DNA from: Saprospiraceae bacterium
GTDB taxonomy: Bacteria; Bacteroidota; Bacteroidia; Chitinophagales; Saprospiraceae
Length of the DNA stretch: 42,914 bases
Direction of reading: 5' to 3'
NCBI GenBank assembly: GCA_007121335.1
Contig: SKLY01000080.1
Coordinates: 1-42,914, forward strand
In this document: piece after piece, positions 35,016 to 35,287 of the stretch
Layout: each line of letters begins with the position of its first letter
Numbering within the stretch: position 1 is the first letter of the stretch
Program-made: the position numbers and the translations under genes
Notes under the pieces: model-generated
What the model saw: only the letters and a program-made list of their open reading frames with translations
What the model was told of the DNA's origin: nothing
The model's database searches: none

Positions 35016-35077
35016 CCCCTATAATTTATTGAAGGTGAAATCGAATACCCTCATTTCATTCCTTTTTTCAACCCTCT

Positions 35078-35264
35078 CACCGGCAGTTTCCGGTGTTAGA
35101 GCTGCTATCTGTATGTGTTGCTGTTGCTGTTGTATGACAACTCGACCGGGCTGCAGTAGTAAATAATTTTACCCACTTTAAATTTTCTTAAAATATCAAA
35201 TGCTGCACCCGGAAAGGGGAGCAGCCAATGATTTATTTGTTCCCCGCTTCAGGTCAGTTTTTTT
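35078..35264 (+). promoter_or_regulatory. Structured mRNA leader of metY: candidate cysteine-responsive attenuator
   Basis: The leader contains a perfect 6-bp hairpin (CACCGG 35078-35083, CCGGTG 35090-35095), the poly-Cys mini-ORF, and two mutually exclusive pairings. Pairing 1 is the mini-ORF 3' part CCGGGCTGCAG (35146-35156) with CTGCACCCGG (35203-35212): 10 base pairs with one bulged C. Pairing 2 is a local hairpin, GCTGC plus CCC (35202-35210) with GGG plus GCAGC (35216-35225). When pairing 1 forms, GGGGA (35216-35220) could instead pair with TCCCC (35241-35245). A T7 run lies at 35258-35264. A ribosome stalled on the Cys codons would mask part of 35146-35156 and favour pairing 2. Which state blocks expression cannot be told by eye. 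Confidence 0.5.
35113..35166 (+). CDS. Poly-cysteine leader peptide (17 aa) upstream of metY
   Basis: ATG at 35113 opens a 17-codon frame ending in TAA at 35164-35166. It encodes MCCCCCCMTTRPGCSSK: six consecutive Cys codons (TGT/TGC alternating) right after the start, and a seventh Cys later. It lies about 93 bases into the predicted metY transcript and about 120 bases before the metY start. Runs of codons for the regulated amino acid are the hallmark of attenuator leader peptides, and short poly-Cys ORFs are known as cysteine-responsive leaders in mycobacteria. Cysteine shortage as the signal for a sulfur-assimilating methionine operon makes sense (inference). Because TGTTGC is a simple repeat, chance cannot be fully excluded. 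Confidence 0.55.
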   Translation: MCCCCCCMTTRPGCSSK

Positions 35265-35287
35265 CTAACTATTTAAACAAATAAATC

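Follow-up and report, generated by a model that had tools for sequence, protein, structure and literature searches.

The window analysed here, a stretch of 42,914 nt of contig SKLY01000080.1 from a Saprospiraceae bacterium, carries on its forward strand the O-acetylhomoserine sulfhydrylase gene metY, preceded by a leader that contains a short ORF with a run of six cysteine codons and several predicted, mutually exclusive RNA helices (Table 1). The gene after metY encodes a single protein in which MetX-like acetyltransferase, aspartate kinase and homoserine dehydrogenase parts are joined; the aspartate kinase domain model scores above its NCBIfam cut-off, the MetX and bifunctional models score below theirs, and this fusion gene likely belongs to the same pathway as metY. 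A cystathionine gamma-synthase-type gene is located at 30742-31887 (NF005871, 536 bits; cut-off 513). In the named collection, the nearest relatives are the Saprospirales/Saprospiraceae MAGs PLM2.Bin40, DLM2.Bin58 and CSSed165cm_270. Within the genus, metY and its leader were recovered from five of the eight genomes, the remaining three being 67-85% complete, and a search of viral contigs found no relatives of MetY.

Table 1. Features of the metY locus in the window; energies are computed, in kcal/mol, and ranges refer to the five genus members.
Feature	Position	Strand	Evidence
Bacteroidota-type promoter match, TTTG-N19-TAGATTTG	34985..35015	+	exact match; N19 spacer in 5/5 genus members
Leader ORF, long form (putative GTG start, 43 codons, poly-Cys part at end)	35035..35166	+	open frame in 5/5 genus members
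Leader ORF, short form, MCCCCCCMTTRPGCSSK (ATG at 35113, stop TAA at 35164-35166)	35113..35166	+	sequence; Cys-rich homologues in 5/5 genus members
Six Cys codons, proposed stall sites	35116..35133	+	single match in window; 0/100 shuffles
Segment 1, ORF tail CCGGGCUGCAGUA, pairs with segment 2 (proposed ON)	35146..35158	+	-19.3; own-versus-other test
Segment 2, UGCUGCACCCGG, pairs with segment 1 (ON) or 3 (OFF); terminator 5' arm	35201..35212	+	computed duplexes
Local hairpin 2:3 (proposed OFF)	35202..35225	+	-13.7; range -13.7 to -19.5
Hairpin 3:4 (proposed ON), GGGGAGCAG (35216-35224) with UUGUUCCCC (35237-35245)	35216..35245	+	-11.6; range -9.5 to -11.6
Helix 4:5 (proposed OFF), AUGAUUUAUUUGUU (35228-35241) with AACAAAUAAAUCAU (35276-35289)	35228..35289	+	14 bp, -12.8; range -8.0 to -12.8
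Terminator-like hairpin (35202-35258) and seven T (35258-35264), alternative OFF	35202..35264	+	-23.3; range -21.1 to -24.3
metY, O-acetylhomoserine sulfhydrylase, proposed regulated gene	35288..36598	+	TIGR01326, 664.8 bits (cut-off 495.1)
Gene after metY, 1140 aa: fused MetX-like, aspartate kinase and homoserine dehydrogenase parts	36721..40143	+	NCBIfam matches

The preliminary description had begun the leader at a match to the Bacteroidota promoter consensus, in the form searched here. The match is exact and is kept, with its 19-nt spacer and at the same place, in all five genus members having this metY. However, two copies of the pattern are present in the window where chance predicts 1.66, so the match carries little weight by itself and was dropped as stand-alone evidence; among the other leaders without a SAM-I riboswitch, 3 of 39 have an exact match at the equivalent place. 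Judged from this match, metY transcription would start near 35021, giving a leader of about 266 nt whose earliest possible start codon, the GTG at 35035, lies some 14 nt behind the predicted start site.

The mini-ORF with six Cys codons in a row is present as first reported, and its run of consecutive TGY codons is unique in the window. The same stretch of 26 codons is open from a GTG or an ATG in all five genus members with this metY; the 17-codon ORF may thus be the last part of a more extended one. For the N-terminal portion of this long form, purifying selection was considered and rejected: substitutions among the five members nearly all change the amino acid (1 synonymous against 10-21 nonsynonymous codon changes in four pairwise comparisons), with no excess at third positions. 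Two Met lie close to seven Cys in the window's leader.

Downstream of the Cys run we distinguish segments 1 and 2 (Table 1), 3 (35216-35224), 4 (35228-35245) and 5 (35276-35289), the first of which is within reach of a ribosome sitting at the stop codon. The pairing of the ORF 3' end originally described as 10 bp exists but is longer, the 1:2 duplex comprising 12 bp with one bulged C (-19.3 kcal/mol in L001; -14.9 to -19.3 kcal/mol across the five members). In the same way, the GGGGA/TCCCC pairing proves to be part of a larger 9-bp helix, 3:4. The local hairpin 2:3 had been placed correctly, and one of its pairs changes from C-G to A-U within the genus. Three elements had been missed: the long reading frame, the terminator-like hairpin, whose T tract is interrupted (TTTTCTT) in three of the five members, and helix 4:5, which extends over the first two bases of the metY start codon and in which two pairs are changed on both sides among the five species. 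Closure of the metY start together with termination, neither of which had been named, is probably the regulatory output in the window's genus.

Folding computations, which the preliminary description had proposed, recovered the alternative helices. The window's leader is more stable than its own shuffles (z -2.49), 3 of 200 being equally good. When segment 1 is masked, the minimum-energy fold contains 2:3 and 4:5 in all five species, with 4:5 extending into the metY AUG in four of them and ending one base short in L003. When segment 1 is free and the nascent RNA reaches the end of segment 4, all five fold into 1:2 and 3:4. With the full leader and segment 1 free, 3:4 is favoured in L003-L005 and 4:5 in L001 and L002; because 4:5 persists at equilibrium in the latter two (start 0.37 and 0.36 unpaired), their ON state would need co-transcriptional folding. 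Masking segment 1 lowers the accessibility of the start region in every member (0.37 to 0.08, 0.36 to 0.06, 0.63 to 0.28, 0.72 to 0.19 and 0.78 to 0.24), a drop matched by 3, 4, 7, 0 and 0 of 200 shuffles, respectively.

For the covariation of these pairings, a MAFFT alignment (A1) with a visible shift around the hairpin was discarded and a trimmed alignment (A2) was used instead; since the CCC of the hairpin is still one column off in A2, the covariation count is limited to selected pairs. In helices 2:3 and 4:5 of the five sequences, 91 of 100 cells pair, against 34-49% for slid versions of the helices; the 9 unpaired cells include a G-C pair lost in L003, one end pair absent in L001 and L002, and three pairs shifted by a bulge in L004 and L005. 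The covariation that had been anticipated is present but thin, resting on five sequences: three base pairs change on both sides, in six cells, as many cells being reached in 1 of 500 shuffles, whereas the number of pairs with two-sided changes is unremarkable (equalled in 227 of 500 shuffles).

These helices can be read as a translation-coupled switch. After transcription from about 35021, a ribosome would translate the leader ORF behind RNA polymerase. If Cys-tRNA were scarce, it would stall on the six Cys codons and leave segment 1 free to pair with segment 2; this pairing would preclude hairpin 2:3 as well as the terminator's outer stem, so that 3:4 would form and the metY start would be open. 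If Cys-tRNA were plentiful, the ribosome would reach the stop codon and cover segment 1, and either 2:3 together with 4:5 over the metY start, or the terminator formed by segment 2 with 3/4, would turn expression off. Given the neighbouring Met codons, the leader may perhaps gauge Met-tRNA as well.

Cys-rich ORFs are by no means restricted to the window's genus. Our main sample comprised 128 metY loci for which the upstream DNA was long enough; most belong to the same family and some to other families in its order (L081, with no upstream DNA, was excluded). At 84 of these loci, the 450 nt preceding metY contain an ORF that starts with ATG and has 3 or more Cys in a stretch of 5 codons, compared with 1/128 on the antisense strand and a mean of 2.0 in shuffled sequences (n=20); with at least 4 Cys in 6 codons the counts are 71/128, 0/128 and a mean of 0.05 in 20 shuffles, and 79 of 128 loci retain a Cys ORF under an added ceiling of 70 codons. 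The conserved Cys-rich ORF that the preliminary description had suggested looking for in aligned relatives is therefore there, at the 84 family and order loci as in the five genus members. Relative to the remaining DNA of the longer loci, both strands included, Cys-cluster ORFs are 27 times (looser rule) or 76 times (stricter rule) denser before metY, some of the background ORFs themselves resembling Cys leaders of a different layout. At L197, L205, L216 and L218, Cys-run ORFs lie beyond 450 nt upstream of metY or on the opposite strand and resemble leaders of another layout or gene, and L115, L117 and L121 carry tandem Cys-rich ORFs, about 305-315 and 137-190 nt upstream of metY.

Beyond the order, a phylum sample (500 nt scanned) and a named sample (550 nt), both without a limit on ORF length, gave a Cys ORF before metY in 21 of 58 and 30 of 80 loci and none in the other 37 and 50, respectively; most of the metY leaders sampled in the wider phylum thus have no Cys ORF. 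Under the stricter rule the named count is 28/79, the short L231 being excluded. The named sample, which partly overlaps the others, includes Cys leaders from Pontibacter, Sphingobacterium, Botryobacter and Cyclobacteriaceae. L188-L190 resemble the contigs of L002, L004 and L005 and are counted in these named figures, but were left out of the analyses of Met content, own-arm pairing, terminators, core distances and density; L198 and L263 look like L133 and L139. TGY runs can come from trinucleotide repeats, against which count the mixing of TGT and TGC in 109 of 132 Cys clusters and an ATG inside the cluster in 44 of 132. A DNA-pattern search of 30 genomes for Cys-run leaders at other genes returned many trinucleotide runs. 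Judged from these predicted ORFs, the Cys-run metY leader is not peculiar to this genome; it is found across the phylum and is often accompanied by a SAM-I riboswitch.

Pooling the three samples gave 132 Cys-bearing leaders, in which SAM-I, called by a sequence pattern, is lacking in 44, precedes the ORF in 85 and follows it in 3. Rfam searches of 60 loci found RF00162 at gathering score in 38 (11/20, 11/20 and 16/20), and the pattern agrees in 59; at L216, SAM-I is too far upstream for the pattern window. Rfam coordinates are available for 13 loci whose ORF lies behind the riboswitch, and in every one of them the SAM-I 3' end is followed by the leader ATG after 1-14 nt (median 9). Measured from the pattern at 84 loci, the first in-frame ATG comes after 13-63 nt, with one outlier of 180. 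Since the SAM-I 3' end abuts the leader start codon in many relatives, SAM may control translation of the cysteine sensor. Other arrangements exist: in L166, L174, L184 and L186 a Cys/Met leader and a terminator come first, then SAM-I and another terminator ahead of metY, making two attenuators in series, and L132 has SAM-I, a terminator and then the Cys leader (in these five, SAM-I was confirmed by Rfam and the terminators were assigned by eye). Neither a Cys ORF nor a SAM-I match was found within 690 nt at 33 of the 128 loci.

In the window itself, no Rfam family reaches its gathering score, the T-box model included, and between 34880 and 35420 no match is credible at a relaxed E-value: the candidates for a known RNA family in the leader, snoRNAs and P14, score far below gathering level and were rejected. 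A covariance model search found no SAM-I (RF00162) in this leader. RF00162 was detected in two of the eight genus genomes, G005 and G007; this metY was recovered from neither, and the riboswitch stands before a MetH-like ORF (L328 and L327, respectively) whose best NCBIfam model is methionine synthase, partial and below cut-off. None was found in the five genomes with the Cys-leader metY; as 150 of 193-278 first-look candidates were scored in four of these (150/278 in G000), the absence of SAM-I outside the leader is not established.

These results bear on a first alternative, namely that RNA structure alone matters, as a metabolite riboswitch or a constitutive terminator or start-masking element, the Cys run being incidental. 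Stable alternative structures do exist, and SAM-I is frequent in homologous leaders; against these points, the window's leader lacks any match to a known RNA family in the searches above, and a Cys-rich ORF recurs among leaders of otherwise very different sequence, so that we regard this explanation as very unlikely.

The Met codons beside the Cys run raise a second alternative, in which they would be the main sensor and the leader would respond to methionine or to a general slowing of translation. Close to the Cys cluster, 19% of residues are Met in leaders without SAM-I and 10% where SAM-I precedes the ORF, against 3.4% and 2.2%, respectively, elsewhere in those ORFs. The two groups differ (Mann-Whitney P = 4e-6, 44 vs 81 distinct windows), and still do after clustering of similar leaders, which partly removes shared ancestry (0.18 vs 0.11, 32 vs 62 clusters, P = 0.001). 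In this count, an ORF was excluded if its end lay over 330 nt from metY (L186 being one such case) and identical Cys windows were taken once (81 of 85 kept). Cys nevertheless exceeds Met in both groups (means of 5.2 vs 3.4 without SAM-I and 5.7 vs 1.3 with SAM-I before the ORF), as it does in the window's leader, and in some leaders the Met just before the run may be the true start codon. A leader reading mainly methionine or translation rate therefore appears very improbable to us, and we return to cysteine as the principal signal.

For this reading the behaviour of the ORF tail is informative. Among leaders without SAM-I, 30 of 44 have a hairpin with a T tract behind the ORF at -12 kcal/mol or below (0/44 by shuffled means); the same is seen in 3/85 when SAM-I precedes the ORF and in 3/3 when it follows. 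Where SAM-I precedes the ORF, the C/G ratio behind the stop, examined as a check for Rho-dependent termination, is slightly higher (median 1.36 vs 1.19). In the 33 of 44 SAM-I-less leaders that qualify under a looser T-tract rule than that of the terminator count, the ORF tail pairs with the 5' arm of its own terminator at a mean of -13.9 kcal/mol, versus -10.1 kcal/mol for permuted arms; none of 10,000 permutations was as good, close relatives being included among the 33. A simpler form of the test, with the target set at 60 nt, yielded -20.9 vs -15.5 kcal/mol over 32 loci. Taken singly, the own-arm duplex has a shuffle P of at most 0.05 in 22 of the 33; the 11 that fail are L010, L027, L028, L041, L102, L115, L117, L118, L121, L150 and L232, and five of these (L041, L102, L117, L121 and L150) pair with their own arm no more strongly than with foreign arms on average (for L121, which has two ORFs, the score is that of the upstream one). 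Twenty-four leaders have duplexes of -11 kcal/mol or stronger. Their pairing core begins 3-35 nt past the final Cys codon (median 13) and closes -1 to 36 nt ahead of the stop (median 13); in 8 of the 24 the distance from the final Cys codon is no more than 10 nt, so short that a ribosome stalled at that codon would overlap the core.

The same observations make it highly improbable that the ORF encodes a small peptide functional in trans, for example metal-binding or redox-active, and placed before metY for co-expression only: Cys clusters can bind metal, and in 31 of 50 leaders with SAM-I no codon follows the cluster's last Cys, which leaves a C-terminal Cys run, but the remainder of the peptide is unconserved even within the genus, the ORF tail prefers its own terminator arm and a T-tract hairpin so often follows the ORF in leaders without SAM-I.

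We consider it likely, on good comparative support, that the metY leader is a ribosome-mediated attenuator gauging charged Cys-tRNA. A codon run related to the pathway is present in an upstream ORF, in the window as at the 84 loci, and exclusive helices that use the ORF tail, with an output by termination or by sequestration of the start, are predicted. Attenuation of this kind had been put forward in the preliminary description, and the Cys ORFs of relatives, the own-arm permutation test and the 22 of 33 duplexes that surpass their shuffles support it; two findings named there as counting against it, homologous leaders without Cys ORFs and pairings without covariation, were both checked and neither refuted it. 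There is, in our judgment, an even chance of a more elaborate design, a two-input gate on metY that recurs across Bacteroidota. SAM-I would control initiation at the AUG of the Cys-run ORF, 1-14 nt past its 3' end, after which Cys-tRNA would set the outcome; in lineages without SAM-I, such as the window's genus, Met codons lie beside the Cys run and one ORF may read both signals; the two sensors are also found one after the other, whichever comes first, separated by terminators. One messenger could thereby read two sulfur signals, the cysteine gauge lying directly behind the S-adenosylmethionine sensor. Such leaders would be a natural case of a riboswitch positioned to control a codon-based sensor and, if confirmed, the replacement of the aptamer by Met codons would amount to an exchange of sensors during evolution. 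They also make it testable how cells balance SAM and cysteine where sulfide enters the pathway, including in named isolates (Pontibacter and Sphingobacterium leaders).

Classical leader-peptide attenuators are of the trp, his and ilv type, and in Bacteroidota the 'Bacteroid-trp' motif is a putative one. The metY leader shares with the classical systems regulatory codons, competition of the ORF tail for the 5' arm of the terminator and an intrinsic terminator (here in the 30 of 44 leaders without SAM-I); it differs in its Cys (and Met) codons and, in the window's genus, in the probable combination of start closure with termination. This is a likeness of layout, and the helices are not shown to be homologous. 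The polycysteine-encoding short ORFs of mycobacteria are reportedly leaderless, to judge by the title under which they were described. That poly-Cys leaders are known from mycobacteria, as the preliminary description had stated, is borne out by the attenuators published by Canestrari et al. (2020, Mol Microbiol 114:93), as cited in PMC9094748; in these, an upstream run of Cys codons reportedly controls downstream genes by cysteine supply, as is proposed here. Unlike these ORFs, the leaders described here belong to another phylum and combine frequently with SAM-I; for the window, a five-segment switch over the metY start is predicted, and the first possible start codon of the leader ORF would lie about 14 nt behind the predicted transcription start. 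In Mycobacterium tuberculosis, riboswitch-controlled upstream ORFs have been described for B12 with metE and ppe2 (PMC11260477) and for Mbox with pe20 (PMC12810186). They share with the metY leaders the coupling of an aptamer to the translation of an upstream ORF, but in the sections of these two articles consulted they are not described as amino-acid sensors, whereas here the riboswitch-adjacent ORF is the presumed cysteine gauge. SAM-V is reported to be associated with metY (PMC6061858), and many relatives of the window likewise have a SAM-sensing RNA, SAM-I (RF00162), before this gene; the window's leader differs in having no SAM-I, and the combined leaders in joining an aptamer to a translated sensor instead of using lone or tandem aptamers.

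As to the phylum, sORFs reminiscent of leader peptides are mentioned for B. thetaiotaomicron in an excerpt of PMC7366714, and in 2010 leader-peptide systems were, by an excerpt of PMC2965389, known only from Proteobacteria and Actinobacteria, to which Firmicutes were then added. In the open-access literature we found neither a Cys-run metY leader in Bacteroidota, in agreement with the preliminary description, which knew of none, nor a SAM riboswitch joined to a leader-peptide attenuator. Translation-coupled attenuation is little described for Bacteroidota in the literature searched, and the proposed leader would be a widespread amino-acid attenuator of this phylum.

The sulfur physiology of these bacteria may give the leader a wider role. 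No match to TIGR01172 (CysE) above cut-off was found in any of the eight genus genomes; the matches reach E values of about 1e-49 to 1e-51 in G001, G006 and G007 and of 1e-15 or weaker in G000, G002, G003, G004 and G005. Since no CysE match stronger than E = 1e-15 was found in the window's species, MetY may carry sulfide toward cysteine there as well as toward methionine. On the question of reverse transsulfuration, the PF00291 proteins L286 (G000) and L293 (G003) fall below the curated cut-offs for cystathionine beta-synthase, and their best model, cysteate synthase, is likewise below its cut-off. In G001, G006 and G007 only, the stronger CysE-like match adjoins a PF00291 protein, which in G006 is CysM by NCBIfam.
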